Source: Hyphomicrobiales bacterium
GTDB lineage: Bacteria; Pseudomonadota; Alphaproteobacteria; Rhizobiales; JAJFHB01
Reading direction: 5' to 3'
Length of the DNA stretch: 35,337 bases
NCBI GenBank assembly: GCA_021775615.1
Contig: JAJFHL010000072.1
Location: 1-35,337 of the forward strand
Shown: positions 7,134 through 23,675 of the stretch, in pieces
How positions within the stretch are numbered: the first letter of the stretch is position 1
Layout: the number at the start of each line of letters is the position of its first letter
Notes under the pieces: generated by a model
Told to the model about the DNA's origin: nothing
Databases searched by the model: none
Seen by the model: only the letters and a program-made list of their open reading frames with translations
Position numbers and translations under genes: made by a program

Positions 7134-7474
7134 TTAACGGCGGAACGCGCCGGTGTCGCCTTTGCGGCGAAAGTTATTAATAGCGTTACATTTTGAAACA
7201 CCAATTGATTTGGTCATACCGGGGGCCATTGGTACTAATTTTAACGAAATTTTCTTTGTGCGTGGTGTTCGGGAAGCAAGGGGTTGAGTGAAGCGCTGGG
7301 GGGCCTTTATCCAGCACGACCGTCGATCCAGACAAACCCAGATTGCTTCGGCAGCCGGATGTCACACGCAGGTGGCAAGCGTCCCCGTTCGCGGGAGTCA
7401 AACAAAGAGCGCGCCATTCGAGAGGATTTCAACATGGGATCGCGTCCACATTAAGAACGGACCGCGGCATCGAT
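7134..7474. other. Intergenic region before the sphingolipid operon
   Basis: These 341 bases hold no gene that I can support. The stretch at about 7180-7260 is clearly AT-richer than its surroundings, as expected for a promoter region of the downstream acyl ligase operon. No -35/-10 pair with good spacing stands out. A longer in-frame extension of the ligase from 7343 exists but shows no conserved sequence and no ribosome site. Confidence 0.5.
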
Positions 7475-9432: not shown

Positions 9433-10371
9433 ATGACGCATGGTCTCATTGCAATAACGGGTGCAACCGGATTTGTCGGAACCCATCTGGTCGAGTGCCT
9501 GCGCCAGGCGGGGCGAAACATACGTGTGATCGCCCGCCGCCCGGAGAGTGTGGTGCGCGGCGACATCGACGTGGTCGAAGGCGATCTCGCCTCGCCCGAC
9601 GCGCTTGCCAGGCTCTGCCAGGGAGCCGAAGTCGTGGTGCACTGCGCCGGCAAGACGGCTGCGTGCTCGCGGGCGGAGTACGATGAGGTCAATGTATCCG
9701 GCACGGAGGCCGTACTGCGGGCGGCCGGTGCCGCGGGCGTCTCAAGATTTGTGCATGTTTCCTCGCTCGCGGCCCGCGAGCCGGAGGTATCCGACTATGC
9801 AGCCAGCAAACGTGCCGGCGAAGAGCTTGTGGTTCATTTCGACGGCGCATTCCCCTGGATCGTGCTCAGACCGCCGGCGGTCTACGGACCGGGTGACAAA
9901 GCCACCTTGCCCCTGATCAAGCAGCTGACGCGGCGTGTTGCATTTGTGCCGGGAACGGCGAGGGGCCGGGCTTCCCTGATCCATGTGCGCGATCTTGCCG
10001 CCGCAATCACCCATGTTGCCGTCGACACCGGGCTTGCAGGCTCGGTTTATGAGCTTGATGACGGCAGTCAGGGAGGCTATTCGTGGCGGGAATTGTCCGC
10101 TGCTGCCGGCGAAGCCGAAGGTCACGGGGTCACCTGTGTCTTTCTGCCGAAGTTGGTGGTGAGGTTGGCCAGTGTCGTGGAAGTGGCGCTGGCGCGGCGC
10201 GCCAACCGCGCGCCGGAAGTAACCTCGGGCAAGGTGAGCGAGCTCTATCACCCGGACTGGGTGTGCCGTCACAACCTGCTGCACCAATGCAGCAACTGGC
10301 ATCCGTCGGTGCCATTGGTGGACGGTCTGAGAGAAACCGCATCCTGGTACCGCGAGCAGGGATGGATGTGA
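9433..10371 (+). CDS. cerR: Extended SDR, probable ceramide reductase CerR
   Basis: NAD(P)-dependent epimerase/dehydratase-type SDR of 312 residues. The nucleotide-binding TGATGFVG is at residues 9-16, the catalytic YxxxK at Tyr122 and Lys126 (YAASK), and the extended-SDR LRPPAVYGPGD motif follows. In Caulobacter the SDR in this operon position reduces the 3-keto group of the long-chain base or ceramide, and that role is inferred here from position. I see no signal peptide: the Rossmann motif begins at residue 9. The Caulobacter enzyme has been reported to be periplasmic, so location deserves checking. It lies 107 bases after the ligase and 64 bases before the ACP gene. Confidence 0.85.
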   Translation: MTHGLIAITGATGFVGTHLVECLRQAGRNIRVIARRPESVVRGDIDVVEGDLASPDALARLCQGAEVVVHCAGKTAACSRAEYDEVNVSGTEAVLRAAGAAGVSRFVHVSSLAAREPEVSDYAASKRAGEELVVHFDGAFPWIVLRPPAVYGPGDKATLPLIKQLTRRVAFVPGTARGRASLIHVRDLAAAITHVAVDTGLAGSVYELDDGSQGGYSWRELSAAAGEAEGHGVTCVFLPKLVVRLASVVEVALARRANRAPEVTSGKVSELYHPDWVCRHNLLHQCSNWHPSVPLVDGLRETASWYREQGWM

Positions 10372-10691: not shown

Positions 10692-11897
10692 ATGGACCTG
10701 CTCGCAAAATACGCCCATTTCGTCGAACGTCACAAGCGCATGATCGAGCTTGGCGTGCATGACGTCGGCGTGAGTGTCGATGAAATCCTCTCGCCTACCC
10801 GGGCCATGATCAAGGGCCGCGAGACCATCCTCGCCGGCACCAACAACTACATGGGCATCACGTTCGAGAAAGAATGCATCGAGGCGGGCAAGCGGGCGCT
10901 CGACACGGCCGGCACCGGCACCACCGGGTCGCGCATGGCCAATGGCAACTACGCCATGCATCAGGAACTTGAAGCCGAACTTGCGGCATTTCTCGGCCGC
11001 GAGCACGTGATGGTGTTTACCACCGGCTATCAGGCCAATCTCGGCATGATCTCGGGCCTCGCGGGGGCCAAGGACACGGTCTATCTCGACGCAGATTCGC
11101 ACGCCAGCATCTATGATGCCTGCTCGGTGTCCGGTGCCCAACTGGTGCGCTTCCGGCACAATGATCCCGACAATCTCGCCAAGCGGTTGGCCCGGGCCAA
11201 CGATGAAGGCGAGGGCGGCCGTCTTGTGGTGCTTGAAGGCATCTATTCCATGTTCGGCGACCGGGCGCCGTTGAAAGAGTTCATCGACGTCAAGCGCGAG
11301 TATGGCTACACCCTGCTGCTTGACGAGGCGCATTCGTTCGGCGTGCTTGGCGACAATGGCCGGGGTCTTGCCGATGAAGTGGGTCTGGAGGACGAGGTCG
11401 ACTTCGTGGTCGGCACCTTCTCCAAGAGTATCGGATCGATCGGCGGCTTCGGCGCCGGTAATCACCCGATGTTCGATCTTCTGCGTTTCGCGGCGCGCGC
11501 CTACATGTTCACCGCCTCTTCCTCGCCGGCGACGATCGCCACCTCGTCCGAAGCGCTGCGCCAGCTGGCGGCGCGCCCGGAGCTGCGCGACAGGCTTCGC
11601 CACAATTCGGCGCGGCTGCACCAGGGGTTCAAGGATCTGGGACTGAGACTGTGCTGCGACGTGGTCAGCCCGGTCGTCGCCGTGTTCGTGGACGATGAAC
11701 CTTCCGCGGTGACCATGTGGAACGCGCTTCTCAACGAGGGCGTCTATGTCAACCTGGCGCTGCCTCCCGGCACACCCAACTCCACCTGCCTGCTGCGCTG
11801 CAGCGTGTCGGCGGCGCATACCGACGACGACATCGACAAGATCATTGCGATGTTTGCAAATGTGGTTGCCACCAGCGGAGAGCGCGCGGCGGAGTAA
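10692..11897 (+). CDS. spt: Serine palmitoyltransferase
   Basis: PLP enzyme of the alpha-oxoamine synthase family, 401 residues. It condenses L-serine with a long-chain acyl thioester to 3-ketosphinganine, the committed step to sphingolipids. Visible features are GTGTTGSRMANGNYAMHQELE (written here in its conserved core: TGTTGSR, residues 75-81), His137 in ADSHASIYD expected to stack on PLP, DEAH at 211-214, and the Schiff-base Lys245 in GTFSKSIGS. Related KBL, AONS and ALA synthases share this fold. The adjacent dedicated ACP, acyl ligase, SDR and lipid kinase genes select serine palmitoyltransferase. It converges with the head-group operon, the stop codons being about five bases apart. Confidence 0.93.
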   Translation: MDLLAKYAHFVERHKRMIELGVHDVGVSVDEILSPTRAMIKGRETILAGTNNYMGITFEKECIEAGKRALDTAGTGTTGSRMANGNYAMHQELEAELAAFLGREHVMVFTTGYQANLGMISGLAGAKDTVYLDADSHASIYDACSVSGAQLVRFRHNDPDNLAKRLARANDEGEGGRLVVLEGIYSMFGDRAPLKEFIDVKREYGYTLLLDEAHSFGVLGDNGRGLADEVGLEDEVDFVVGTFSKSIGSIGGFGAGNHPMFDLLRFAARAYMFTASSSPATIATSSEALRQLAARPELRDRLRHNSARLHQGFKDLGLRLCCDVVSPVVAVFVDDEPSAVTMWNALLNEGVYVNLALPPGTPNSTCLLRCSVSAAHTDDDIDKIIAMFANVVATSGERAAE

Positions 11898-11902
11898 GGC
11901 GG

Positions 11903-12814
11903 TCAGCGGAAGCCGCCCTTGCGGTAGAATTTCGGCGCCATGGCGATCGCCGCCAGGATCGGATGGCGGCGCTGCCATGGCGTGACCTCGATCTCGACGC
12001 CGGAATGGCGCGATATCTTCCAGGCGATGTAGTCGGCTCCACCGCGAAACGTGAACCCGGCCTTGACCAGACGGGCGACCGAGAGGGCTTTTCCGGCCAC
12101 ACGCCGCCATGGCCAGCTTGCGCTGACCGGCGCCACCGGCGCTCCGGCTGTGTTTTCAAGAATGCCTGACACGCGCTCAAAGTGGTCCTGGCCGGCCTCG
12201 ACGATGGAGGCCGCCCGCGATGCGCTTTCAGGACGCAGTTCGGTGCGGTAGGTCGCTTCGAACAGCGATGTCCAGATGCGTCGCCAGTCCGCCGCGTCGC
12301 CTGTGATCCCGAGGCCGTTGGCATAGGCGGTGCGGGTTGCCGCGGCGAGCGCCGCATGGACACGCGCGCGGATGGCTTCGTCGCGGGCAAAGACAAGGGC
12401 GCAGGGCTGGGCGAACCTGACCCAGAAATAGGGATTGGACGTCGTTTCGGAGACCTTGGCCTCGAACTGGTCGAGAGAGACCACGGCATATTTCGATCTG
12501 AGCGTCTGCCCGCCGCCGTCGCATTCGAGATAGTAGACATTGGGTGGAACGATGCGGTTGGCGAGTGCCACGAGTGAGCCCTTATGGGCGTCGCGATAGC
12601 GCGTCACGAGCGCGTAGAGATCCACCAGCGATTCATCGAACCCGACGCCGCGAAGGCACGAACCATACGCCAGAACCGCCAGCAGGGCGTCGCCGTAGAT
12701 TTCGTGAAACTCGTCGGCGAGAAGTGTGACCTCCCGCGCGACCGGGGCGTCGGCCCGCGCGGCAACGACCTGGATCAGCTCACTGTCGGCGTCGCTAGAG
12801 CGTTTCACGTTCAT
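11903..12814 (-). CDS. Nucleotidyltransferase-fold protein of the head-group operon (CpgC-like position)
   Basis: The 303-residue product has an N-terminal pol-beta-type nucleotidyltransferase signature: YGSCLRG, then, about ten residues on, LVDLYALV. The usual second metal-binding Asp is Tyr (DLY), so catalysis is uncertain. The middle has PPNVYYLEC and YAVVSLDQFE. Its position between the lipid kinase and spt matches the cpgC slot of the Caulobacter ceramide phosphoglycerate genes, as I recall that cluster. The ATG at 12814 lies inside the left terminal repeat of the inserted element, in a frame that enters the gene as MNVKRSSDAD. An open frame from 12997 also exists but is entirely element sequence. 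Before insertion the gene probably began with GTG overlapping the kinase stop. It ends next to the convergent spt gene. Confidence 0.8.
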   Translation of the reverse strand: MNVKRSSDADSELIQVVAARADAPVAREVTLLADEFHEIYGDALLAVLAYGSCLRGVGFDESLVDLYALVTRYRDAHKGSLVALANRIVPPNVYYLECDGGGQTLRSKYAVVSLDQFEAKVSETTSNPYFWVRFAQPCALVFARDEAIRARVHAALAAATRTAYANGLGITGDAADWRRIWTSLFEATYRTELRPESASRAASIVEAGQDHFERVSGILENTAGAPVAPVSASWPWRRVAGKALSVARLVKAGFTFRGGADYIAWKISRHSGVEIEVTPWQRRHPILAAIAMAPKFYRKGGFR

Positions 12815-13063
12815 ATAGAATCGCCTTGACCGAGATTTCGCGTCTGCTGGCGAGGCACGGTTGCCGCCTTGGACTTCGCGTCCACAAGGGAGCCGTAACG
12901 CAGTCCAGAAGGCGCGAAATCTCGGCCTTCGGTGGGCCAAATCGGCCCTCCGGCCACGTTGCGGCGCTTGCCCGATGCACCACATCGCGCGGCGCACCGC
13001 GCCTTACCGGACGAACCGATTTGGCGCCATCAAACGTTTCCATATGAACGTGAAGCGCGCTAG
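12795..13063. repeat. Structured palindromic element, copy A (MITE-like)
   Basis: A 269-base non-coding element bounded by CTAG at both ends. The terminal inverted repeats, 12794-12823 and 13035-13064, match at 26 of 30 positions. Inside is a second perfect 13-bp stem, CCGAGATTTCGCG (12830-12842) with its complement at 12913-12925, and a small hairpin TGGAC-ttcgc-GTCCA (12870-12884). Copy B at 30470-30840 shares the interior. It lies between the lipid kinase and nucleotidyltransferase genes; its right CTAG contains the kinase stop codon and its left arm holds the ATG of the next gene. No transposase is encoded. CTAG may be a target-site duplication or part of the element. Confidence 0.88.
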
Positions 13064-14034
13064 CCACAGAGATACTCGAAGGCGGGCCCGGTACTGATCT
13101 TGATCACACCCTCACTGGGGGGCTCGAACAGCTCGCCATCGATCACCACGCTGGTGTCTGTGGCGAGGTCGATTTCCTCGCCTGAAAAACTCTGAAAATC
13201 GGGCTCCGGCAATCCCCTGTTCGCGGATCCGTACATGACAGGGAGAAGATATCGAATGATGCTTGGATGAGGATAGGCGACGGTGGTTGCTTTCAAGGTG
13301 GCGCTGGCGGCTTCGTTCCAGAATGGCCTGGTGCCGAGGATGAGCCTGTGGAGGGTGGTGACCAGGAACATCAACTGGTCGAATGCGGTCCTGATCTGCC
13401 CGTCGACGGAAATCGTCATGGGATAGGGACGGTCGATCAGATCGGGGTCCTCGTCCGGACCTGATCGCGAGAAAAGCGACTTCATAAGAGCCAGTGCGAG
13501 CGTAACACCGGTTGCCATATCGCCCTTGAGGCCCATGCCGTGAATGTCCTGCTGGCACAGGACAACGGCACGGTAGATGGCGCCGGTGCCGAAGAACATG
13601 CCGTGCTGGGGCGGCGTATCGTGCAGGTTCGAGACCTTTACGGTGTTGCGTGTCCTGATCGCCGTTGCCCGGCGCAGATAGCCGGGGCGGGAGAGCATGT
13701 CGGCAATGCGGTCGGGATTGCTGGTTCGCAGACCGACATCGGACGCCGTCATGTTGGTGGTGCCGTGCGGCAGAATCGCAAGCCGCGGCAGTGTTTTGAA
13801 CGGCTTTTTCTCGGCGAGTACGGTCTGCACCGCCTGCACGGTGCCATCGCCTCCGCTGACGGCGATCAGAGAGACCTTCTGCCTGGCGAAGGATTTGACG
13901 ATCTCCGGCAGCAGTGTGAAATCGTCGATCGATTCGGTGACGACACCGGGGGCGCCATTCAGGGCCTGCGCCAGGGCCTTGCCCTTGCGTCCCTGTTTAG
14001 CCGATTTGGGGTTGATAAGGACGCCAACATTCAT
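13060..14034 (-). CDS. cpgB: Lipid kinase of the DAG kinase catalytic family, probable ceramide kinase CpgB
   Basis: Cytoplasmic lipid kinase of 324 residues. The ATP-binding GGDGT motif is at residues 61-65 (SGGDGTVQAV), with LPHGTTNMTA at about 88-97 in place of the usual LPxGTxN, and an N-terminal LINPKSAKQGRKG typical of the family. In Caulobacter the lipid kinase beside spt (CpgB) phosphorylates ceramide, the first step of anionic head-group synthesis; transfer of that role rests on gene order. The start overlaps the CDP-alcohol transferase stop in an ATGA (14031-14034). The stop codon TAG coincides with the CTAG edge of the inserted element. Diacylglycerol or another lipid substrate cannot be excluded. 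Confidence 0.87.
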   Translation of the reverse strand: MNVGVLINPKSAKQGRKGKALAQALNGAPGVVTESIDDFTLLPEIVKSFARQKVSLIAVSGGDGTVQAVQTVLAEKKPFKTLPRLAILPHGTTNMTASDVGLRTSNPDRIADMLSRPGYLRRATAIRTRNTVKVSNLHDTPPQHGMFFGTGAIYRAVVLCQQDIHGMGLKGDMATGVTLALALMKSLFSRSGPDEDPDLIDRPYPMTISVDGQIRTAFDQLMFLVTTLHRLILGTRPFWNEAASATLKATTVAYPHPSIIRYLLPVMYGSANRGLPEPDFQSFSGEEIDLATDTSVVIDGELFEPPSEGVIKISTGPAFEYLCG

Positions 14035-15251
14035 TGGCGGTCCACCGGCCGGTTGAGCCAGGATTCAAGCGGGCCGTGACGGTAACTGACGATTGCCGCC
14101 TGGATCAGTTGAAGACCGTGCAGCCCGAGGCAGATCAAGGTCCACCATGCCACCGCGATGATACCGAGGTCGGGCCGGCCGACAATGGCACTTGCGGTCA
14201 GGATGACCATATTCGGATTGCGCCGCGCGGTGATCTGCCGAAAGAACGTGTCGATGGGACGCCAGATATGTATCTCGAGGCCGAACGACTTGATGGCGAT
14301 GCCTTCCATCAGGCGCTGTGCCACATAACCGGCGAAGATTGCTATCATCACCCACATGAAGGTCTGCTGGTCGAGCGCAAGAGGGGTGGTCGCAAGTCCG
14401 AATGCCCAGGCCGCATACCAGAACGGCGGATGGATCAGGTCTATGCCGTGATCGAAGATGTTGCCCCACTTGCTCGAGGTGCGGGTTACGCGGGCGAGCT
14501 TGCCGTCAACCGTGTCGAGAAAGGTCATGAACCAGGCGGCGATGAGCCCGATGATCCACTGGCCTTCGAGAAACAGCATCAGAGCGACGATCACGAACAC
14601 CGCGCTGATCGCGGTGACGATGTTCGGGGTGATGGATGTCGGCGCCAGCGCCCGGGTGACGAAGAATGCGGGCAGCGGCCAGACATGTTTGGTGACCAGA
14701 TCAGTCGCGCCCTTGTAGGTGCCCATGAAGGTGCGCCATTCGACCTCGCGCTTGTTGAGTTTGGAGACGATCAGGGCGTAGGGCACTTCGCGTTTGCGCA
14801 GGCCCTTCCAGTAGGCGGCATCAAGCTGGTCCGGCCGTTTTGCCTTGTGTTTCAGATAAACCGGTATGCGGTCAGGCGGGTCGCTGAGAATGTGCGCCGC
14901 GTCGCCGGCGTGCTCGGGCGCAACATGCAGAGCGATCGGCTTTTCATGGCCCATTTCGTCGCCGATCAGCAGTAGTCCCTCGTTTTCGGCAAGCATCGGC
15001 ACGAGCGGAGCGTCTATGACAGCGTCCGCGCGCACGACGATGACGGCCCGCGAAATGCCTGACAGGTCGGCCTCGTCGATGATGTCGACGACGCCAAGCT
15101 TGACGAACATGCGCATCAGCCGCTCGGCCGGCGTCATGCCCCAAAGCTGGATGCCGCAAGTGCCGACGAAACAGATGCACGGGGCTTGATCAAGCGTGCT
15201 CTGTGCGGTGCGGACCGGGGCGGAACGGGTATCGATGTGGGCCTTCACCAA
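14031..15251 (-). CDS. CDP-alcohol phosphotransferase with N-terminal nucleotidyltransferase-like domain (CpgA-like position)
   Basis: Two-part protein of about 406 residues. The C-terminal membrane domain (about 190-400) has the full CDP-alcohol phosphotransferase motif DGxxARx8Gx3Dx3D: D249, G250, A253, R254, G263, D267 and D271. It should transfer an alcohol phosphate from a CDP-linked donor to a lipid or head group. The N-terminal region (about 25-130; CFVGTCGIQLWGMTPAERL) resembles a degenerate GT-A nucleotidyltransferase domain, as in fused inositol-phosphate enzymes. The start is TTG at 15251 or GTG at 15248; an in-frame stop lies just upstream. It follows the LptG-like gene by 112 bases and overlaps the kinase by four bases. 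The operon suggests it acts on ceramide phosphate. Confidence 0.85.
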   Translation of the reverse strand: MVKAHIDTRSAPVRTAQSTLDQAPCICFVGTCGIQLWGMTPAERLMRMFVKLGVVDIIDEADLSGISRAVIVVRADAVIDAPLVPMLAENEGLLLIGDEMGHEKPIALHVAPEHAGDAAHILSDPPDRIPVYLKHKAKRPDQLDAAYWKGLRKREVPYALIVSKLNKREVEWRTFMGTYKGATDLVTKHVWPLPAFFVTRALAPTSITPNIVTAISAVFVIVALMLFLEGQWIIGLIAAWFMTFLDTVDGKLARVTRTSSKWGNIFDHGIDLIHPPFWYAAWAFGLATTPLALDQQTFMWVMIAIFAGYVAQRLMEGIAIKSFGLEIHIWRPIDTFFRQITARRNPNMVILTASAIVGRPDLGIIAVAWWTLICLGLHGLQLIQAAIVSYRHGPLESWLNRPVDRQ

Positions 15252-15363
15252 GATCCATTAGGGACGGTGTCGGGCAAATCCGCGGCAAATGCCGAGTTGC
15301 CCGTTACGCGCAATCCTACCTCATGAGTGTCGTGATCGCGCTCTATCTGGAGCGCGCCATTTC

Positions 15364-16437
15364 CTAAAGCGTTTCGTAGCGGAATGCAATTGTTCCCGAT
15401 GTCAGCGCAAAGATCAGCATTGGCAGCCATGCCGCCATCCAGGACGGCAGGAGACCCAGTTCTCCCATCGTCATGGAAATGCCGTCGAACACGAAAAAAG
15501 TGAACCCCAGTCCAATCCCGACGGCGAACAGAATACCCAGTCCTCCGCCGCGCCGGTGGCGACCGGCGAGGGGAATGGCAATAAGAAGCATCAAAACGCC
15601 CGTTAGAGCCAGTGTGGTGCGTTTGTGCAGCCATGTCGTGTAGACGTGGACGGGCCTGATGCCGAAGCCGGCATTGTCGATGAAGTAGTTCAAATCGGCG
15701 TAGGACATTTCTTCTGGATCGCCGGATCGCGTGCCGGCCGCGGCCGGACGCATCCGTCCACTGTAGACCATGCGTTTGACCCGGCTCGGGGGCACGTTGT
15801 TGCGATAATAGATGACCACGCCGGTCATGTGCCAGCGGCCGGAAACCAGCTCCGCTTCTTCCGCCATGATCTGCTCTATCAGGAGCCCGTCGCTGTCGCG
15901 CCTGAAGATCGTGACGCCTGTCAGGGACGTGGCCTGCTGGTTGCTTCCGGTGGCGCGAAGCACATCATTGCCCGAGCGCATCCAGATCGGATCCTTCTCG
16001 CCGACCTTGAGCTGCTTTTCACTGTAATCGCCAATGCCCCATTCATGCAGGATTGGCGACACCGTCGGCACCGCCTTGTCGCTCAGGAAAAAGTTGGCCA
16101 CCCCGAACACCGCGGCGACCGGCAGCAGCATGGCGATCATGCGGAACTGGGAAACGCCGGCGTTCCAGATTGCGACCAGTTCGCTGTGGTGGCTGATCTC
16201 GGTCAGCATCATCAAAGCGGCCAGAAGAAAGCTCAACCCCATGAACGCGGATATGATGCCGGGCAACCGCAGCAGGGCGTAATGGCCGATCGACCAAAGA
16301 TTGTCGTTGTGAAGCGCCAGCACGTCTTCCGAGTAGGTCACCAGATCAAGTGTGACGACAAATGCAGAGATGCCGAACAGGATCATGATGAACCTGACCA
16401 TCAGCATTTTCGAAAGCATGAGGCTGAGTGTCCACAT
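15364..16437 (-). CDS. LptG-like permease, sphingolipid-locus paralogue
   Basis: Inner-membrane permease subunit of the YjgP/YjgQ family, 357 residues. Three N-terminal membrane helices are followed by a periplasmic beta-rich domain (about residues 120-265) and three C-terminal helices, the LptF/LptG architecture. The segment around SELVAIWNAGVSQFRM matches the LptG coupling region. In LPS export, LptF and LptG with LptB2 extract lipid from the inner membrane and pass it to LptC, LptA and LptD. Here the neighbours are sphingolipid genes, with no lptD, pepA or lptC, so a specialised lipid substrate is more likely than LPS. It follows the LptF-like gene by 12 bases. Confidence 0.85.
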   Translation of the reverse strand: MWTLSLMLSKMLMVRFIMILFGISAFVVTLDLVTYSEDVLALHNDNLWSIGHYALLRLPGIISAFMGLSFLLAALMMLTEISHHSELVAIWNAGVSQFRMIAMLLPVAAVFGVANFFLSDKAVPTVSPILHEWGIGDYSEKQLKVGEKDPIWMRSGNDVLRATGSNQQATSLTGVTIFRRDSDGLLIEQIMAEEAELVSGRWHMTGVVIYYRNNVPPSRVKRMVYSGRMRPAAAGTRSGDPEEMSYADLNYFIDNAGFGIRPVHVYTTWLHKRTTLALTGVLMLLIAIPLAGRHRRGGGLGILFAVGIGLGFTFFVFDGISMTMGELGLLPSWMAAWLPMLIFALTSGTIAFRYETL

Positions 16438-16449
16438 CCCACGTGTTTC

Positions 16450-17676
16450 CTAGGGTTGCCGTGTCAGACCGGCCGCCTGGTGCCGGCACCAACGTACGAA
16501 CTCACCCAAACGGTCAAAGATCGGCTCGAGACCGTCGGATCTCAGCGTGAAACATGCCCGGTAGTAGCGCCAGCCCGAAAAAGTGGCGAGCGCCGCGAAA
16601 GGCAGCCAAAGGGCGATGTAGGGTGAAGCGCCCTGCACCCGCACTGCAAGCGCGCCCTGATTGATGATCTCGTTGTAGGCGATCAGCAGAACCAGAGCGA
16701 CCGCAAATCGGTAGGCGCGCTGCCCGCGGCGCCGGCCAAGCGCGAACGGAATGGCCAGTATGGGCAGCAGGAGAATGGTCAAAATACTGACGACGCGGCG
16801 GTGAAGCTCCGCCTGCATGTCCTGTTCTGTCGCGCCCTTGGGCGGGCTGTCCTGATGCTCAATCAGTTCGCCCAGCGTCATCTCGCGTTCATCGTTGCCG
16901 CGGAGGCGGAAGAACACGGCCCTCACCTTGCCGAGAGGGGTGTCAACGCTTTTGAACTCGGCCACCCTGCTCTGGGGCAGCGGTTGTGCGTTGTCCGGTG
17001 CCGGCCAGCCCTGGATCTGCAGCCGATGGACCTTTTGCAGGCGCAGAACCGGCCGCTGCTCGCCTTCAACCTCGATCAGGGCTCCAGTGGTCGCCGATAC
17101 GGTTTCGCTGCCTTTGTCGCCCTTGTCTTCGAAGAGAAATATCCGCTCGAACCTGTTGTCGCGGCGTGACAGCTTGTCGAGGATGAAGGTGCGGGTGCCC
17201 GCCTGCATGAAGACGCCTTCCTCAGCGAGGTAGAAGATTTCGACATTCTTGACGGTATGGACCAGCGCCCGATAGGCGTAGCGCGCATGGGGCTGGACGT
17301 AGCCGAAGATCAGGACACCGGCGAAGGTAAACAGAACCGCAAGGCCGAGCACCGGACGCGACAGCTGGTGCAGGCCGACCCCCGACGCCATGAAGGCGTC
17401 CACCTCGCTTGCCTTGCTCAGTTTGTTGAAGCCGAACAGGAGCCCGATGAAGAGCGATGCCGGCAGCGCGAGGCCAAGATAGTGCGGGACCAGATAGCTC
17501 AGCATCTCGAACACCAGGGTGAAGGAGTTCTTCTTGCCCAGGGTGATGTCGAGAAGGCGCACGAGACGCTCGGAGAGGAGAACCAGGAGGCCGATCGCGA
17601 GCGCCGCCAGCAGCGGGCGGACAATCTGCCGGACCACATAGGCTGAAGAGGTCGACAGCAGGCGGTCCAGAATCAT
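16450..17676 (-). CDS. LptF-like permease, sphingolipid-locus paralogue
   Basis: Partner permease subunit of the YjgP/YjgQ family, 408 residues. The start of the protein (ILDRLLSTSSAYVVRQIV, then LLSERLVRLLDI) and the coupling segment FNKLSKASEVDAFMASG match LptF. A long periplasmic jellyroll domain lies between helices 3 and 4, and the C-terminal helices include LPILAIPFALGRRRGQR. I place the start at 17676, which overlaps the HIT-protein stop in an ATGA and has GGCGG upstream; a GC-rich extension to 17706 is open but not conserved-looking. Together with the LptG-like gene it would form one heterodimer needing an LptB-type ATPase, which is not encoded in this window. Confidence 0.86.
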   Translation of the reverse strand: MILDRLLSTSSAYVVRQIVRPLLAALAIGLLVLLSERLVRLLDITLGKKNSFTLVFEMLSYLVPHYLGLALPASLFIGLLFGFNKLSKASEVDAFMASGVGLHQLSRPVLGLAVLFTFAGVLIFGYVQPHARYAYRALVHTVKNVEIFYLAEEGVFMQAGTRTFILDKLSRRDNRFERIFLFEDKGDKGSETVSATTGALIEVEGEQRPVLRLQKVHRLQIQGWPAPDNAQPLPQSRVAEFKSVDTPLGKVRAVFFRLRGNDEREMTLGELIEHQDSPPKGATEQDMQAELHRRVVSILTILLLPILAIPFALGRRRGQRAYRFAVALVLLIAYNEIINQGALAVRVQGASPYIALWLPFAALATFSGWRYYRACFTLRSDGLEPIFDRLGEFVRWCRHQAAGLTRQP

Positions 17677-18128
17677 TCGGCACCGCCAGTGCTCGAACCG
17701 GGCCATATGTCAGCAAGGGCTTTCACCAGGGCGTCTCTCGCCGGCTCATCGAGGCTGACCGCAAAGCCAAGATCAGGCACCGCGGGCCATCCGGGGTCAG
17801 GAAACTGCGTGCCCCCGAACTCCTGAGGCTCGTCATATCTGGGAAGCACATGGAAGTGCACGTCGCGGTCCACCATCATGAGCATCAGGTAGTTGATCTT
17901 GCCATAAGGGCGGAAGGAAGACAGCGTGGTCTCGATATCACGGGTCGCTTCGGCCAGTTCGGCGAATGCGCCGGCTGAGATGTCGGAAAACGCCTCGGCT
18001 TCGTCCTTGCAAACCAGGACCAGCGCGGCCAGCGTGGCCTGCGCCGGACGCAGCAGAACGCACCAATGTCGGTAGTCCCGGATCAGGGTCGCGGGATACC
18101 CGAATTTCGTCATCGTCGGATTTGGCAT
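17673..18128 (-). CDS. HIT-family nucleotide hydrolase/transferase-like protein
   Basis: Small cytoplasmic HIT-fold protein of 151 residues. The triad segment reads DVHFHVLPRY: the first His of the usual HxHxH is Asp, while the catalytic middle His and the last His remain, a variant I associate with this proteobacterial HIT subgroup. Other family features are the N-terminal hydrophobic RHWCVLLRPAQ and INYLMLMMVD. HIT proteins act on nucleoside monophosphate esters or transfer nucleotidyl groups, so a role around CDP-activated head-group donors is possible but not shown. It lies 58 bases after the metallophosphoesterase gene and overlaps the LptF-like start by four bases. Confidence 0.82.
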   Translation of the reverse strand: MPNPTMTKFGYPATLIRDYRHWCVLLRPAQATLAALVLVCKDEAEAFSDISAGAFAELAEATRDIETTLSSFRPYGKINYLMLMMVDRDVHFHVLPRYDEPQEFGGTQFPDPGWPAVPDLGFAVSLDEPARDALVKALADIWPGSSTGGAE

Positions 18129-18186: not shown

Positions 18187-19107
18187 TCAAAACTTGGCCG
18201 GGGCCGTAAAGGTCGTTTCGCCGGCAGGAGTGAAGGAGCGGCCATCCGCCGCCAGTCCGCGCACGGTTACCCGGCATCGCCATTCGCCGCCATCGCGTTC
18301 GATGTCGTAGAGATTGTACTGCGCCGCGGGCCGATGGCCTCCCTGGCAGCCCGACGCCGACGGCACGCCGTAAATGTGTGTCACGCCCCGCCGCGTGGTC
18401 AGCGTTTCGTGCATGTCACGGTGATTGTGCCCATGCAGAACAAGTTCGGCGCCGTTGCGCTCCAATATTCCGGCGAGTTCGGTGGCATCCCTCAGGCCTT
18501 TTCTGCGGGACGCCTGGTGGGCCAGCGGCGGATGGTGGATCAGCACGACCCTGAAGTATCCTTCCGCGCCCAGGGTCGCCAGAGCCTTGTCGAGGGCGGT
18601 CCGCTGCTCCTCTCCGAGCCTTCCGCTGGCCAGCAGCGGCGGCATGGGAACGCCCGTGGACAGGCCAATAATTGCGATGCCTCCGGCGATGCGGATATAG
18701 GGAAAGCGCTCCCCCGGAGCCACGTGCGCCGCGCCCAGGGTGTCCGAGCGCATGTAGTCAGACCACACCCCAAGCGTCTCGTCCCACGGCATTGCGACAT
18801 AGGCATCGTGATTGCCCGGCACCACGGAGACGTGTTCACCCGAGCCGATGGTCCTGAGCCACTCAAGCGCGTTTTCGAACTCCGGCCGCAAGGAGATGTT
18901 CACCAGATCTCCGGTGACCGCAACGTGGTCGGGTTGCTGGTCCTTGAGATCCTTTACCAGCAGGTCCGCGACGGTGCGCAGATGGAAGGATTTGCGCCGC
19001 CGATGCCAGTTGAAAAAGCCCAGAAGCCGCTTGTTCATCAGCTGAACGGCGCGCACCGGCGGCATCGGACCAAGATGCGGATCAGAAAGATGGGCAAGCC
19101 TTATCAT
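18187..19107 (-). CDS. Calcineurin-like metallophosphoesterase
   Basis: Binuclear metal phosphoesterase of 306 residues. All metal-binding motifs are visible: DPHLG near residue 9, GDLVN, GNHD, HHPP and HGHNH. Substrate is unknown. Members of this family include nucleotide-sugar or CDP-diacylglycerol-type pyrophosphatases and cyclic-nucleotide esterases. As the first gene of the operon that runs through HIT, LptF/G-like, CDP-alcohol transferase and lipid kinase genes, it is a candidate for cleaving or trimming an activated head-group intermediate. It is divergent from the cytidylyltransferase-like gene, with about 100 bases between start codons that must hold both promoters. Confidence 0.86.
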   Translation of the reverse strand: MIRLAHLSDPHLGPMPPVRAVQLMNKRLLGFFNWHRRRKSFHLRTVADLLVKDLKDQQPDHVAVTGDLVNISLRPEFENALEWLRTIGSGEHVSVVPGNHDAYVAMPWDETLGVWSDYMRSDTLGAAHVAPGERFPYIRIAGGIAIIGLSTGVPMPPLLASGRLGEEQRTALDKALATLGAEGYFRVVLIHHPPLAHQASRRKGLRDATELAGILERNGAELVLHGHNHRDMHETLTTRRGVTHIYGVPSASGCQGGHRPAAQYNLYDIERDGGEWRCRVTVRGLAADGRSFTPAGETTFTAPAKF

Positions 19108-19206
19108 GCAATGTGACGCTGCGACCGGCGGGAGTTGACTTGGGAATCCCCAAGTGTCATTGAGAGGCCGTTTCTATCAAGGTTTGTTGGAAAAGGTCAT
19201 CATAAA

Positions 19207-19938
19207 GTGAAAGTGCTGATCCTCGGCGCGGGCCAGGGCAAACGGCTGTTGCCGTTGACCGAAGAGGTGCCCAAGGCACTCCTGGACATCCACGGGCGTA
19301 CCCTTGTCGAGCGGCAGATTGATGCGTTTGCGGCGTGCGGCATCAAGGAATTCGTGGTCATCACCGGCTACAACAGCACGATGATGGAAAACCATCTCAA
19401 GGAAATCGAAAGCCGCAATCCGGGCATTGAAATTCGTACTGTGTACAATCCGTTTTACCCCGTTGCCGACAATCTGGCGAGTTGCTGGATGGCGCGCGAT
19501 GAGATGGACGGAGAGTTCATCCAGGTCAACGGTGACAATCTGTTCCGCTCGGCCATGATCGAGGATCTGCTGAAGGCGCCGGAAGCGCCGGTCATCGTCG
19601 CGATCAACCAGAAAGACCAGTATGACAACGACGACATGAAGGTCATGCTGGACGGGGAGCGTCTGACGGAGGTCGGCAAAACGCTGCCCCTTGAAGCGGT
19701 CACCGCCGAGGCCATCGGTATCTACCATTTTCGTGGCGAGGGCTCGCGGCTCTATCGTGAGGTCCTTGAAAAGGCCATGCTCGAGCCGTCGGGGCTGAAA
19801 CAGTGGTTCCCCTCGGCCGTCGGCACCCTTGCCAAGCTGACTGATGTCAAGGTCTGCGCCGTCACCGGCCATGAATGGTGCGAGGTCGATTTTCCGGTCG
19901 ACCTGCAACACGCACGGCATCTGGTTGCCGGCTGGTAA
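19207..19938 (+). CDS. Sugar-phosphate/phospho-alcohol nucleotidyltransferase (CpgD-like)
   Basis: RmlA-type nucleotidyltransferase of 243 residues from a GTG at 19207, just before the motif LILGAGQGKRLLPLT (conserved Gly-rich loop, then Lys23 in VPKALLDI). A GDN metal-binding motif lies in QVNGDNLF, and a C-terminal VDFPVDL follows. A longer TTG-initiated frame from 19135 is open but the extra residues look non-conserved. Such enzymes make CDP-alcohols such as CDP-choline from phosphocholine. The Caulobacter sphingolipid pathway uses a phosphoglycerate cytidylyltransferase (CpgD), and this gene is a good positional candidate. It would supply the CDP-activated donor for the CDP-alcohol transferase. 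It is transcribed opposite to the flanking operons. Confidence 0.8.
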   Translation: MKVLILGAGQGKRLLPLTEEVPKALLDIHGRTLVERQIDAFAACGIKEFVVITGYNSTMMENHLKEIESRNPGIEIRTVYNPFYPVADNLASCWMARDEMDGEFIQVNGDNLFRSAMIEDLLKAPEAPVIVAINQKDQYDNDDMKVMLDGERLTEVGKTLPLEAVTAEAIGIYHFRGEGSRLYREVLEKAMLEPSGLKQWFPSAVGTLAKLTDVKVCAVTGHEWCEVDFPVDLQHARHLVAGW

Positions 19939-19953: not shown

Positions 19954-20763
19954 TCAGGCCTGATCACCGCCGTCACGATCCGCGAAAATGCGCTCGACGA
20001 GTTCCAGGTCGGCCGGCTTGTCGACGTCGATGGCGGCCTCTGCGAGCGGCATGACGATGGGGCAGGCGGTGACGCCGAGACGTTTTGACCCCACCTCAAA
20101 CGCCTTTACCAGGCTGGCCCGCCCGGTCAGATAGAGCAGCAGCGCAACCACGCCGAATGCGCCGATGAGGCGCCAGGGCTGCTTGCGGTCCCGTTCGACA
20201 CGCTGCCAGAAGTCAACCGCGTTCAAGGCCGCGGCGGTGTTGAAGGTGAAGAGATTGCAACCTGAATACCGCCCATCGGCAAATTTCAGAAACGTCCGCG
20301 TCGCACCGGGATAGGCGCTCAGAATGGTTTCAGCTTCTGCAAGTCCGGCCGTCAGATCGGCGCCTGTCCGGCGTGACCGTGTACAGAAATCATTGACCAT
20401 GTCGGGCGTCAGCAGAGCATGGTCGGCGGTCGTGACCAGAACCGGGAATTCCAGGCTGCCGGAGCGCAGGGCCTGGCCGACGCTTGAACTTGCCCGCTCG
20501 GCGCTTGCCATGGTCTCGATGGGGGCACGCTTGCGCAGTTCCGCAAGACCCGCCGCTCCAGCGATAATGGCGGGATCTTCAATGGAGATGAATATGCGGC
20601 CGATCGACTTGGCGGCCGCAAGGGCGCCGAGCACCCGCATCAGCATGGGCACGCCGGCCACAGGCAACAGACATTTGTGGCTCGCACCCGAAGCCTTCGC
20701 CATCGGATCGTCCGCGCCGCGTCCCGCCGCCAGAACCAGGGCATCGAACGTCCGGGCGCTCAT
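19954..20763 (-). CDS. MobA-like NTP transferase
   Basis: GT-A-fold nucleotidyltransferase of 269 residues. The N-terminal loop LVLAAGRGADDPM is followed by the conserved Lys in SHKCLLPVAG; the metal site appears as VTTADHALL, and AAIDVDKPADLELVE closes the domain. Residues about 195-215 form an unusually hydrophobic helix (IGAFGVVALLLYL), perhaps membrane-interacting. The ATG overlaps the stop of the ceramide-synthase candidate in an ATGA (20760-20763). It is the last gene of the hydroxylase-ABC-acyltransferase operon and converges with the other nucleotidyltransferase gene. Its substrate is unknown; a second activated head-group component is the natural guess from context. Confidence 0.83.
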   Translation of the reverse strand: MSARTFDALVLAAGRGADDPMAKASGASHKCLLPVAGVPMLMRVLGALAAAKSIGRIFISIEDPAIIAGAAGLAELRKRAPIETMASAERASSSVGQALRSGSLEFPVLVTTADHALLTPDMVNDFCTRSRRTGADLTAGLAEAETILSAYPGATRTFLKFADGRYSGCNLFTFNTAAALNAVDFWQRVERDRKQPWRLIGAFGVVALLLYLTGRASLVKAFEVGSKRLGVTACPIVMPLAEAAIDVDKPADLELVERIFADRDGGDQA

Positions 20764-21929
20764 CCTGGCTGCGGCCCGGAGATCTCTCTCTCGTATATGC
20801 GGTAGGTCTTGTAGTGGGTTGCGCCGGTAAATTTGGCAAGGTTGAGCATTGCCTCATTGTCATCGAGCACCCAGGAGAGCTCGCCCCAGGTCGAACCCCG
20901 GTCGCGGTGGAAGCTGCGGATGGGATCTATGACGGCGGCGGCAAGCGCGGCGCCGATGACCCCCGACTGATACTTCTTGCGCACCCCCATCAGCGGCAGG
21001 CGAACCGAGTTCGGCTGCCGCAACTTGATGCGCCACAGTATCTTCGCCCAGCCGAACGGCAGCAGCTTGCCGCCGAGATCGGCGATCGCCTCATTGACAT
21101 TGGGCAGGGTGACGGCGACCGCCACCGGTTCTCCGTTATAGGTGGCGATGGCGCCATACTCGTCGCGGATCAGCAGCTTGAGGTTGGCGCCCAGGGCCTT
21201 CACCTCGCGATCGGTCATCGGTACGAAGCCCCAGTTGTCGGCCCAGGCTTCGTTGAAGATGTCGATCAGGATGTCGAGATCCTCGTTCAGTTTTGATATT
21301 CGGAACGGGCGGACTTCCAGTTCGCCCGACTTCTTGGCGCGCTCGACCATAGTGGCAAGTGAACGGGGCAGCTCAAGCTCGCGGCCGTACTCGAAGGCCA
21401 GCAGGTCCTTGATACCGGAAAACCCGGCCTGCTCCAGACGTTCGGCGTAATAGGGCGGTGCGTAGTTCATCATCAGCGCGGGCGGTGAATCGTATCCCTC
21501 GACCAGCAGCCCGCACTCGTCGTTGATGGAGAAGCTGAACGGGCCGATCATCCGCTTCATGCCATGGCCGGCCAGCCAGTCCGCCGCGCATCCGAGAAGC
21601 CTTGAGAAAACCTCTTCGTCATCGATCGATTCGAGGAAGCCGAAATGGCCGGTTTGGTCGCCATAGCGGTCAAGGTAGAGCTCGCATATCTGGGCGGAAA
21701 TCCGGCCGACCGGCCGGCCGTTCCTGGTTGCCGTCCACAGGGCGACCTTGGCGTGGTCAAAATAGGGGTTCTTTTTCGGGTCGAAATGTTCGCGCCGATC
21801 CATGTATAGCGGCGCAATCCAGTTCGGATCTTCCTTGTAGAGTTCGAAGGGCACGTTGATGAACGCTTCGCGCCCGGCCTTCGCGTCGGCCTCCTGGAGC
21901 TGGATCTCGATCTGGGCGGCTGGCGCCAT
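20760..21929 (-). CDS. bcerS: GNAT-like N-acyltransferase, bacterial ceramide synthase candidate
   Basis: Protein of 389 residues in the large GNAT-related family that begins with a motif like FINVPFELYKEDPNWIAPL followed by RREHFDPKKNPYF. A second GNAT-like half (about 200-370) includes DIFNEAWADNWGFVPMT and the hydrophobic acceptor region. In Caulobacter, the acyltransferase of this kind in the sphingolipid cluster is the bacterial ceramide synthase, which N-acylates the long-chain base. I assign this role by family resemblance recalled from memory and by location. It follows the ABC exporter by 21 bases and overlaps the next gene. Members of the family also occur in bacteria without sphingolipids, so this is not certain. 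Confidence 0.78.
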   Translation of the reverse strand: MAPAAQIEIQLQEADAKAGREAFINVPFELYKEDPNWIAPLYMDRREHFDPKKNPYFDHAKVALWTATRNGRPVGRISAQICELYLDRYGDQTGHFGFLESIDDEEVFSRLLGCAADWLAGHGMKRMIGPFSFSINDECGLLVEGYDSPPALMMNYAPPYYAERLEQAGFSGIKDLLAFEYGRELELPRSLATMVERAKKSGELEVRPFRISKLNEDLDILIDIFNEAWADNWGFVPMTDREVKALGANLKLLIRDEYGAIATYNGEPVAVAVTLPNVNEAIADLGGKLLPFGWAKILWRIKLRQPNSVRLPLMGVRKKYQSGVIGAALAAAVIDPIRSFHRDRGSTWGELSWVLDDNEAMLNLAKFTGATHYKTYRIYEREISGPQPG

Positions 21930-21950: not shown

Positions 21951-23666
21951 TCAAACGGCTTCGGGCATGGAGTGCGATTTGTCGGTCTTGGACAGACTGC
22001 CGTAATCGAGCCTGTAGAGCTGCGTGGCAACGTCGGTCCAGGCCGGCCGATGGGTGATCGCGATGATGGTGTAATCGCCAGCCAGGTTCTGGACGTTGCG
22101 GCAGATTTCCGCTTCCGTGTTGGGATCGAGCGCGCTTGTCACTTCATCGAGAATCAGCAGCTTGGGTTTGGTAACAAGGGCGCGGGCGAGGGCGACCCGC
22201 TGGCGCTGGCCGCCGGAGAATTTCATGCCGCGCTCGCCGACGACGGTCATCAGGCCTTCCGGCAATGATGAGACGAAATCCCAGGCGTCGGCTTTCATCA
22301 GTGCGTCGCGGGCATCGTCTTCCGTCAGGCCTTCATCGCCCAGGGTCACATTGAGCAGAACCGTATCATGCAGCAGGGCAAGTTCCTGTGGAACGTAACC
22401 GATCATCCGTCGCCACTGCCCGAGGTCGATTTCGCGCAGCGGCACACCGTCGATCAGAACCCGGCCGGTATCGGGTGAATACAAACCCGTCAGCAGGTCG
22501 ATCAGCGTTGTCTTGCCCGAACCGGAAGGCCCCTGAAGCACCGTTATTTCACCGATCGGAACATCGAGCGTTACATCGCGAATGACGGGCACGTCGCTAT
22601 AGGCAAAGCTCACACCCTCGAAGCGGCATCCCTGGTTCAGGGTCGGGGTCTTGCTGCCGGGATTTTCTTCGCGCTGATCGGCAACGGTGTCGATCAGGTC
22701 GTTCAGGCGGATATAGGCGCTTTCAAGTTCGGCCGAGCGCTGGAGAAACTGCTGCGCCTTACCGACGATGCCGACCACATTGTAGAACAGGGCGCTCATG
22801 ACAATGAGTTCGGGGATAGGGATCTTATAGACCAGGGCAACATAGACACCGACGCCGGCGGCGTTGAACAGGATCAACTCCTTGCCGTAGGTCATCGCCT
22901 GCGCCGCAATCACCTGGCGCCGGATGGACTTGTTGAGAAAGTGGATCTTCTTGGTGAACAGCGCCGCGAAGGCGGTCTGCCTGCCCATGGTTTTGAGCGG
23001 CTTGATGTTGTTGAGGGCGTCGGCGACATAGGTGACAAGGTCGGAGGTGCGGTCGGTCTGCTTGTAGCCTGACTTGCGCGAAACCTTGGTCAGCGAGCTG
23101 AGAATCATCACCATCAGGGCGCCGGCGCCAAGTCCGGCCAGCGCCAGCATGGGCGATATCGCCGTGGCGACGAGAACATAGATTACCGCCAGTATGCACA
23201 CGGACAGGAATTTGGCCGCGGTCTGATAGGCCGACGCGGCGCGTGTTGCGTCATTGGATATGGTGTTGGTGATGCGCCCGACCCGCTGCTCGGTGAAGTA
23301 GCTCCAGCGCACGGCGAGGAGGTTCTCGATCAGGCGTGCGCGCAGGTGGGTGGCGACATGCGCCATCGAATAGCCAACATAAGACAGGGCGAAGAATGAC
23401 AGGATCGCCTTGGCGCTCAGCCCGCCAATCAGCAGGACGATCAGCGTGGTCATCGTCGGCGGCAGACCGATCGACTCGATCCCATCAAGGAACATCTGAT
23501 TGTAGGGCGAAGAGTTCTCGCTTGCGCCTCCGGTCAGGTGGGTGATCGTCGGCAGAAGCGAACTCAGGCCGATGCCTTCGGCGATGCCGGCGAGCACCAG
23601 GCATGCCAGAACCAGCCACGGTCTCGTCTGTTCGGCGCGAAAAAATATTCTGAGAACGTTGAGCAT
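21951..23666 (-). CDS. MsbA-like ABC exporter (fused membrane and ATPase domains)
   Basis: Half-transporter of 571 residues that works as a homodimer. Six membrane helices occupy about residues 15-310, including the helix around LVLACLVLAGIAEGIGLSSLL. The ATPase domain has Walker A GPSGSGKTT (about 379-387), signature FSGGQRQRVALARAL, and Walker B LLILDEVTSALD. Lipid flippases and peptide or drug exporters share this form. Inside a ceramide-modification operon it is a candidate flippase for a sphingolipid or its precursor. I use the ATG at 23666; a TTG at 23672 is also in frame. The hydroxylase gene ends nine bases upstream and the acyltransferase follows by 21 bases. Confidence 0.9.
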   Translation of the reverse strand: MLNVLRIFFRAEQTRPWLVLACLVLAGIAEGIGLSSLLPTITHLTGGASENSSPYNQMFLDGIESIGLPPTMTTLIVLLIGGLSAKAILSFFALSYVGYSMAHVATHLRARLIENLLAVRWSYFTEQRVGRITNTISNDATRAASAYQTAAKFLSVCILAVIYVLVATAISPMLALAGLGAGALMVMILSSLTKVSRKSGYKQTDRTSDLVTYVADALNNIKPLKTMGRQTAFAALFTKKIHFLNKSIRRQVIAAQAMTYGKELILFNAAGVGVYVALVYKIPIPELIVMSALFYNVVGIVGKAQQFLQRSAELESAYIRLNDLIDTVADQREENPGSKTPTLNQGCRFEGVSFAYSDVPVIRDVTLDVPIGEITVLQGPSGSGKTTLIDLLTGLYSPDTGRVLIDGVPLREIDLGQWRRMIGYVPQELALLHDTVLLNVTLGDEGLTEDDARDALMKADAWDFVSSLPEGLMTVVGERGMKFSGGQRQRVALARALVTKPKLLILDEVTSALDPNTEAEICRNVQNLAGDYTIIAITHRPAWTDVATQLYRLDYGSLSKTDKSHSMPEAV

Positions 23667-23675
23667 TCCCAATCG

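Follow-up and report, generated by a model that had tools for sequence, protein, structure and literature searches.

Which lipid does an LptF/LptG-type permease pair handle when its genes lie among those for ceramide synthesis? This question is raised by a contig of a Hyphomicrobiales bacterium (JAJFHL010000072.1, assembly GCA_021775615.1), whose 35,337 nucleotides are hereafter called the window. It bears on an open issue, namely the route by which bacterial sphingolipids reach the outer membrane; according to the available excerpt of a 2024 paper, its authors regarded a flippase or lipid transporter for sphingolipids as not yet identified (PMC11087976). A preliminary description of the window had proposed the pair as a candidate second, dedicated set of lipid-export permeases that might borrow the ATPase of lipopolysaccharide (LPS) export.

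The Permease Pair and Its Gene Neighborhood

The two permease genes are adjacent on the minus strand (table 1), and the PF03739 family covers nearly the full length of both ORFs with scores well above its gathering cut-off of 27.9 bits, which bears out their initial assignment as an LptF/LptG pair. According to NCBIfam profiles, the shorter ORF is G-like (213.3 bits with TIGR04408, 60 with TIGR04407) and the longer is F-like (201.3 bits with TIGR04407, 91 with TIGR04408), both missing the respective equivalog cut-offs of 240 and 230 bits. The longest ORF for LptF begins at 17706, and a candidate ATG at 17676–17674 overlaps the TGA stop of the HIT gene at 17675–17673 (ATGA); judged from the sequence, position 17676 is the likely start. 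In AlphaFold2 models, both proteins show six long helices of membrane type together with a series of strands; the mean pLDDT is 79.3 and 78.4, some stretches fall below 50, and the pTM is 0.65 and 0.69. A Foldseek comparison of these models with the PDB gave solved chains of LptF and LptG as the best matches, with TM-scores of 0.52 and 0.65 relative to query length. The pair is predicted to fit the LptF/LptG layout, in which a periplasmic β domain is inserted among six membrane helices, in keeping with the six-helix and jellyroll arrangement first attributed to it.

Table 1. Features of the Permease Pair and Neighboring Genes (Positions in the Window)
Feature	Position	Strand	Basis
Candidate acyl-AMP ligase (aasR-type)	7343..9325	+	PF00501 207 bits; named by family and gene order
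Candidate cerR reductase	9433..10371	+	PF01370 112 bits; named by family and gene order
Candidate serine palmitoyltransferase (spt)	10692..11897	+	PF00155 156 bits; named by family and gene order
Unknown-family protein, conserved in cluster	11903..12997	-	Relatives in 36/69 named loci
DAGK-type lipid kinase, candidate ceramide kinase	13060..14034	-	PF00781 56 bits
CDP-alcohol phosphotransferase	14031..15251	-	PF01066 54 bits
LptG-type permease, 357 aa, sphingolipid-linked clade	15364..16437	-	PF03739 198 bits, TIGR04408 213 bits, trees, model, Foldseek
LptF-type permease, 418 aa (longest ORF)	16450..17706	-	PF03739 201 bits, TIGR04407 201 bits, trees, model, Foldseek
HIT-like protein, upstream of LptF	17673..18128	-	55% identity to plasmid proteins annotated HIT family
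Metallophosphoesterase	18187..19107	-	PF00149 57 bits
Nucleotidyltransferase	19135..19938	+	PF00483 49 bits
MobA-like NTP transferase	19954..20763	-	PF12804 47.5 bits
Candidate ceramide synthase (cerS-type)	20760..21929	-	Position and relative annotated N-acetyltransferase
MsbA-like ABC exporter, candidate sphingolipid flippase	21951..23672	-	PF00664 and PF00005

The pair is linked to ceramide synthesis genes in a gene order similar to that of relatives, and its flanking by the HIT-like and CDP-alcohol transferase genes, co-directional with the lipid kinase, agrees with these ORFs, all five of which lie on the minus strand. No Pfam family matched the cerS-type protein, which is 37% identical to a Sphingomonas protein annotated as N-acetyltransferase, nor did Pfam searches yield a match for the unknown-family protein or, at 1e-3, for the HIT-like protein, relatives of which occur on two plasmids. 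A relative of the metallophosphoesterase is present in 68 of the 69 named loci. The MsbA-like exporter scores 235 bits with TIGR02203, under the cut-off of 602. A Pfam scan of 30 ORFs of the window found no LptC; its two ABC ATPase hits are this exporter and an OpuA-type protein (716–1816), so that the scan agrees with the original view that the window holds neither LptB nor LptC.

A Sole Pair in a Genome without Detected LpxC and LpxB

No other PF03739 pair was found in the source genome (392 contigs, 96.65% complete), whether beside lptD and pepA or elsewhere, and the reading of the window pair as an additional copy is thus rejected. Profile searches for LpxC and LpxB, the two lipid A enzymes tested, gave no match in this genome, and LptC, LptA, LptB and LptD are all present on other contigs, with one LptB over the cut-off and one LptC match. 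Because neither LPS gene test gave a match, the pair does not appear as the only one of a genome with LPS, a situation held at the outset to speak against a dedicated role. It does lie, as first described, away from the pepA/lptD/surA/ksgA region: pepA, lptD, surA, pdxA and rsmA are clustered on a separate contig. No LpxC match came up in the four searched genomes of the same family, nor in 100%-complete genomes of other families (G004, G022, G055 and G068), and this rules out an assembly gap as the only cause of its absence. The bacterium seems to have lost LPS.

The lptD locus of relatives shows the corresponding loss pattern. In 14 chosen loci of LpxC-bearing genomes the interval between pepA and lptD measures 2578–3502 bp and is filled by lptFG, whereas in nine loci of LpxC-less genomes it measures 335–892 bp and is devoid of lptFG, with lptD retained. 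By a hand tally, lptFG lies within 5 kb of lptD in 28/32 LpxC-bearing relatives versus 0/8 LpxC-less relatives having lptD (Fisher p 6e-6, uncorrected for relatedness).

Phylogenetic trees place the window pair inside clades of sphingolipid-linked LptF and LptG, apart from the canonical lptD-linked proteins. These clades are separate in tree 1 (support 99/87 for LptF and 97/91 for LptG), which was built from 8 of the 69 named loci plus chosen sequences after removal of eight ORF matches that were too short once trimmed, and again in tree 2 (100/98 and 88/96), in which 22 rows that were long, near-duplicate or out of group were removed, including a canonical-type LptG of genome G014, and five were added. 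The clade tests leave out the ungrouped rows, 11 in tree 1 and five in tree 2, and a diverged G014 copy (L073 5253–6482) fell under the profile score and is absent from tree 1. The check proposed at the outset, namely whether spt-linked copies form a clade of their own, thus turned out in favor of the original idea, and both trees rule out membership of the pair in the canonical clades.

These results can be weighed against the view that the pair serves ordinary LPS export, the lipid A genes having either escaped the assembly or diverged beyond the reach of the LpxC and LpxB profiles. The assembly is indeed incomplete and two lipid A enzymes were tested; moreover, LpxC-less G014 retains, at a distance from lptD, an LptG (C197:7438–8487, 189 bits) which tree 1 groups with the canonical LptG, and this counts against a clean swap of one pair for the other. 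However, the negative LpxC searches in the four genomes of the family and in the 100%-complete genomes mentioned above, the lptD locus without canonical lptFG and the position of the pair outside the canonical clades render this view very improbable.

Distribution in the Order

LpxC is missing in 18 of 101 genomes of the order, and all 14 of these that have PF03739 genes carry LptF in the sphingolipid cluster; since the LpxC-less lineages are related, such genome counts are not independent. On a proxy species tree at least three changes are needed, two of them forced by well supported branches. Further PF03739 copies occur in seven of the 14 genomes, outside the cluster in G014, G036, G037, G038 and G079 and as a third match of unlisted place in G068 and G078. 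Neither LptFG nor LptD was found in LpxC-less G051, G088 and G066, while searches of G089 (84% complete) found LptD and a distant CerS (33%) but no LptFG. CerS matches at E 0.001 occur in 15/18 LpxC-less versus 14/83 LpxC-bearing genomes, and at 48% identity or more, a line chosen after the results were seen, in 14 versus 3. Both a canonical and a sphingolipid-linked pair are present in the LpxC-bearing genomes G006, G094 and G034; the LPS status of G006 is unsure, because its LpxB search gave no match.

As for the bridge proteins, LptC and an LptB over the cut-off occur in 14/14 LpxC-less genomes searched, and LptD was found in 15/19. LPS-less genomes that have LptB, LptC and LptD together with LptFG in the sphingolipid cluster amount to a natural deletion experiment, the pattern of which points to the whole Lpt bridge, beyond the permease alone. 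The same counts bear on the alternative that sphingolipid transport by the pair does not involve the LptD end of the bridge, the pair acting for instance as an inner-membrane flippase, LptD being kept for another reason. Plasmid modules bringing LptFG without detected bridge genes would fit this alternative: the conjugative plasmid pDCB2 carries a sphingolipid module including LptFG, and LptB, LptC, LptA and LptD were not detected on it. Yet we regard it as distinctly improbable, given the retention of the bridge, LptA having been checked in the genome of the window, and given that the window pair, too, is predicted to have the strand-rich domain by which LptF/LptG feed the bridge.

Another cluster gene lies near LptF in 69/69 named loci, cerS or spt in 55 of them, and this linkage, found also on plasmids, indicates that the pair moves with the pathway. 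It argues against the possibility that the pair has as its substrate a different lipid or lipoglycan of the outer membrane and owes its place in the sphingolipid cluster to shared regulation only, the more so as the plasmids belong to distant hosts. Further diverged LptFG pairs of the order adjoin other lipid genes, such as those for a polyketide synthase and inositol-phosphate synthase, and lend this possibility some weight; we nevertheless consider it unlikely.

Conserved Residues

Window LptF E101 and LptG E86 align with E. coli LptF E84 and LptG E88, which contact LptB (excerpt of PMC5548808). In a residue comparison that leaves out orphan and diverged copies, the LptB-contact glutamate is conserved in 27/27 linked LptF and 27/27 linked LptG. 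At the positions of LptG K40 and K41, canonical rhizobial LptG mostly has Arg (14/15 and 11/15) and linked LptG mostly has an acidic residue (15/27 and 24/27); K40E/K41E substitutions left the growth of E. coli unaffected, as reported in the same excerpt. The K34E substitution is lethal to E. coli (PMC6744409), and the corresponding position is Asp in most canonical and most linked copies. As read from these alignments, the residue evidence is mixed and the LPS-cavity differences give no clear substrate signal.

A Possible Route for Sphingolipids

That the only pair found lies in a sphingolipid cluster suggests that sphingolipids are now brought to the cell surface by the machinery of LPS export, and we consider the pair to be probably a sphingolipid-specific LptFG acting on a shared LptB/C/A/D bridge. 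The module of pDCB2, with LptFG but no bridge gene detected, also speaks for this reading. The neighboring enzymes would make ceramide and attach its head group, after which the MsbA-like exporter would perhaps flip the ceramide lipid; LptFG, driven by the single LptB of the genome, would then pull the sphingolipid out of the inner membrane, and the LptC-LptA-LptD chain would pass it on to the outer membrane. LPS synthesis and the LPS-type LptFG would have been lost in the lineage, with LptB, LptC, LptA and LptD retained, presumably as components on which the sphingolipid pair depends. Cluster linkage and separate clades thus favor the dedicated permease of the preliminary description, of which we infer the substrate and the direction of export, as well as the use of LptB/C/A/D and with it the borrowing of the LPS ATPase.

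A wider reading, which may equally prove right or wrong, is that a single LptB/C/A/D bridge is shared by interchangeable LptFG pairs, each acting as a substrate adaptor. Several Hyphomicrobiales lineages would have lost LPS and its adaptor and live on the sphingolipid adaptor, the sphingolipid module would travel with its adaptor on conjugative plasmids, and other lipids, for example polyketide-derived ones, would be served by additional diverged adaptors.

Comparison with Known Systems

Among the matches listed in open-access literature, PMC11324152 alone links Lpt proteins with sphingolipids; Lpt terms are absent from PMC9386255, and the matches listed on Hyphomicrobiales LPS loss, Aestuariivirga polar lipids and Taklimakanibacter held nothing useful. 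With the LptB2FGC extractor of LPS in E. coli and other bacteria, the window pair shares the fold, the pairing and the LptB-contact glutamates, and its genome likewise has LptB, LptC, LptA and LptD. It differs in its separate clades, its scores under the NCBIfam cut-offs, its other chromosomal place and a genome in which LpxC and LpxB were not found.

In Sphingomonas parapaucimobilis YK209, lptF-lptG are flanked by an spt-type and a cerS-type gene, and tree 2 groups them with the sphingolipid-linked sequences, although they are 29% and 28% identical to the window pair over the matched part and their neighboring genes differ. Some Sphingomonas, S. koreensis being named, are without LPS (excerpt of PMC11324152). 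The YK209 genes are annotated as LPS export permeases. Our results suggest that sphingolipid-linked lptFG may carry wrong LPS-exporter labels, as perhaps in this record.

The closest parallel is LptF2/LptG2 of Caulobacter crescentus (CC_1156/CC_1155), which like the window pair are of LptF/G type and lie within a sphingolipid synthesis region. Their carriage of phosphosphingolipids to the outer membrane was proposed in 2024, and the CC_1156 (LptF2) mutant shows cofitness (0.60) with CC_1159, which belongs to the sphingolipid pathway (excerpt of PMC11324152). In that excerpt, the Caulobacter proteins are second versions beside an LPS pair, and their region has an LptC2 (CC_1168), whereas the window pair is the only one found, in a genome with a single LptC match and neither LpxC nor LpxB detected. 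The core idea is therefore already in print for Caulobacter as a proposal, and what is new here is the swap in LPS-less bacteria.

Permease Pair and Its Genomic Neighborhood

The preliminary description placed an LptF/LptG pair inside the sphingolipid cluster, and this is borne out by two open reading frames of LptG and LptF type, whose predicted models match the solved structures of the two proteins. The likely start of LptF overlaps the stop codon of the HIT gene as ATGA, which suggests translational coupling of the two genes. The surroundings comprise genes for a metallophosphoesterase, two nucleotidyltransferases, an MsbA-like exporter, a CDP-alcohol transferase and a DAGK-type kinase together with a cerS-type gene, while aasR-, cerR- and spt-type genes lie farther left on the + strand; these names were assigned from protein family and from gene order as presented in PMC11324152. 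The window also carries two aspartyl/asparaginyl beta-hydroxylase genes, mutually 60% identical over the matched part and one adjoining the cluster exporter, the products of which possibly modify lipid.

Coordinates of the permease pair and of other features in the window, in sampled genomes (G, with contig C and fetched locus L) and on a plasmid
Feature	Sequence	Position	Strand
LptG-type permease	window	15364-16437	-
LptF-type permease	window	16450-17706; likely start 17676	-
Beta-hydroxylase gene	window	23676-24500	
Beta-hydroxylase gene	window	29608-30456	
Canonical-type LptG	L073 (G014:C197)	7390-8511	
Deeply diverged LptF/LptG pair	L066 (G038:C38)	8065-10454	
Diverged LptF/G pair with second LptB	L084 (G019:C1)	~3600-17200	
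Sphingolipid module	pDCB2 (L221, NZ_CP065408.1)	~41-69 kb	

Lipid A Markers and the Lpt Bridge

In the genome of the window (6.26 Mb, 392 contigs, 96.65% complete) the search for PF03739 returned this pair only. A search of the lipid A pathway that covered LpxC and LpxB found neither. The remaining bridge is present: LptC, LptA, LptB and rpoN are adjacent on contig C170, and LptD lies on contig C22 in the order rsmA-pdxA-surA-lptD with divergent pepA beyond it and no lptFG in between. A single LptB, at 374 bits, exceeds the NCBIfam cut-off; the second-best ABC protein among the matches listed for this genome scores 180 bits. The earlier idea of a dedicated sphingolipid exporter accompanying an LPS copy holds in its direction but not in copy number, this being the sole PF03739 pair found in the genome. 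The pair probably serves as the sphingolipid adaptor of an Lpt bridge, in a bacterium that seems to lack LPS.

Among relatives, LpxC was missing in 9 of 41 genomes, which also lack LpxB and include all four of the window's family, two of them only partial (G101, 61% and G079, 71% complete); G006, G009 and G016 have LpxC without an LpxB match. By hand tally, lptFG lies <5 kb from lptD in 28 of 32 LpxC-bearing relatives, the exceptions having it on other contigs (G005, G009) or giving no match (G024, G026), and in none of the eight LpxC-less relatives having lptD. The interval between pepA and lptD spans 2578-3502 bp with two LptF/G ORFs in each of 14 chosen LpxC-bearing loci, and 335-892 bp with none in nine chosen LpxC-less loci; in G055 and G092 pepA lies 7.5-7.6 kb from lptD, again without lptFG in between. 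No LptF/G ORF was found in the 15 fetched LpxC-less lptD loci, three of which have <1 kb upstream, the stretch of G004 being without pepA.

Across the order, LpxC was missing in 18 of 101 genomes. PF03739 matches occur in 14 of these, always with a sphingolipid-cluster LptF (the contig of G078 ends within this gene); seven (G000, G004, G022, G047, G055, G062, G092) have the two cluster copies alone and the other seven carry more, for the most part diverged. Three further LptF-type genes in G036 (151-212 bits) and an LptG in G014 (189 bits) grouping with canonical LptG, that is, with the LPS-type copies linked to lptD, indicate that loss of the canonical type is incomplete in some LpxC-less genomes. 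This G014 gene lies away from lptD, with a diverged LptF/G-type gene alongside on the opposite strand. LptF-type genes without an LptG partner in the fetched stretch occur in G036 (three: L074, L075, L077) and G006 (L082), with an MsbA-like ABC gene close to three of the four, and cerS- and spt-like genes close to one. The four LpxC-less genomes without a PF03739 match include G051, G088 and G066 (95-99% complete), in which LpxC, LptF/G and LptD gave no match and total loss of the Lpt system is possible, and G089 (84% complete), which has LptD. LptD is present in 15 of 19 LpxC-less genomes, being missing in these three and in G101 (61% complete), and LptC with an over-cut-off LptB in all 14 searched for both.

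Other pairs are more diverged. The pair of L066, from an LpxC-less genome (84 and 62 bits), is a third one. The genes on either side of it encode a myo-inositol-1-phosphate synthase and a CTP_transf_1 protein, and also a polyketide synthase of a single module, accompanied by an oxoamine-synthase-like gene. That of L084, from an LpxC-bearing genome, has its own second LptB above the cut-off (326 bits), and the locus also holds spt-like and cerS-like genes, PgpA, an inositol-phosphate-synthase-like gene (52%) and a glycosyltransferase.

Linkage to Sphingolipid Genes and Mobility

A cerS-type protein was found at E 0.001 in 15 of 18 LpxC-less versus 14 of 83 LpxC-bearing genomes, a distribution for which the Fisher test takes no account of relatedness; at ≥48% identity, a line chosen after the list was seen, the numbers are 14 versus 3. 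When the LptF alignment was used to scan contigs of named genomes, 69 loci emerged, of which 14 apparently coincide with loci already sampled. Another cluster gene lies near LptF in all 69, and cerS or spt in 55; the fourteen others include 11 stretches of <16 kb. In the remaining three, of 21 kb (L175, L178, L180), cerS and spt must be farther away or elsewhere, and in G022, the genome of L175, cerS lies ~12 kb from LptF. All but one of the loci (68/69) belong to Hyphomicrobiales or to broadly named alphaproteobacteria, proteobacteria or bacteria, the other being Bombella (28% identity).

LptF and LptG accompany spt, cerS, kinase and head-group genes on a plasmid of Roseomonas mucosa and on pDCB2, a conjugative IncP plasmid from Diaphorobacter sp. 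JS3051. In this betaproteobacterial host the module, near-complete for sphingolipid synthesis and export, has a Tn3-family transposase and genes for mercury resistance in its vicinity. Searches by tblastn (E. coli and G000 queries, E 0.001), which could miss distant LptC or LptA, gave no LptC, LptA or LptD match on the whole of pDCB2 or the 21 kb covered of the Roseomonas plasmid, the gene tables of both being incomplete; LptB gave weak matches alone, to other ABC genes (74-92 bits). Given these undetected bridge genes, we infer that the travelling pair would have to rely on the ATPase and bridge of its host.

Phylogeny and Residues

Copies in sphingolipid clusters, hereafter linked, separate from the others in phylogenetic trees. 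In the first (92 rows), linked LptF and linked LptG (26 rows each, window copies included) are each set apart by a single branch, with support of 99/87 and 97/91; in the second (75 rows), which also takes in copies from Sphingomonas, Roseomonas and Acetobacter, support is 100/98 and 88/96, with a bootstrap not fully settled. The E. coli rows are long branches, and in their presence the canonical groups do not form single clades. Both kinds coexist in G006 and G094, LPS production by G006 being unsure because of its missing LpxB match. Since these LpxC-bearing genomes nest among LpxC-less lineages, the tree of PepA, PdxA and RsmA (28 rows) requires a minimum of three changes of LpxC state, and branches with good support force two of these. 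Our interpretation is that LpxC was lost more than once, although it may alternatively have been regained by transfer.

The LptB-contact glutamates are invariant in linked and canonical groups. At the positions corresponding to K40/K41 of E. coli LptG, most canonical LptG have basic and most linked LptG acidic residues; the position of LptF K30 is Arg in 27/27 linked and Gln in 10/12 canonical sequences; that of LptF R33 is Arg in 23/27 and 12/12, respectively. These differences mark the clade and do not prove substrate, because K40E/K41E is reported to have no effect on E. coli growth (PMC5548808) and most members of either rhizobial group have Asp at the LptG K34 position, despite the reported lethality of K34E in E. 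coli (PMC6744409).

Comparison with Known Systems

According to PMC11087976, no sphingolipid flippase or transporter had yet been identified. Among the open-access literature matches listed, none described a loss of LPS in these Hyphomicrobiales or an lptFG-free lptD locus. The idea of sphingolipid export by such a pair is partly in print already for Caulobacter, the LptC2, LptF2 and LptG2 of which have been proposed, as a proposal only, to carry phosphosphingolipids; a CC_1156 mutant shows cofitness with the sphingolipid pathway (0.60 with CC_1159), and orthologs are reported in Sphingomonas wittichii, Zymomonas and others (PMC11324152). The novelty here lies in the pattern of loss, by which the remaining Lpt bridge is tied to the sphingolipid pair and the question of sphingolipid export becomes testable.
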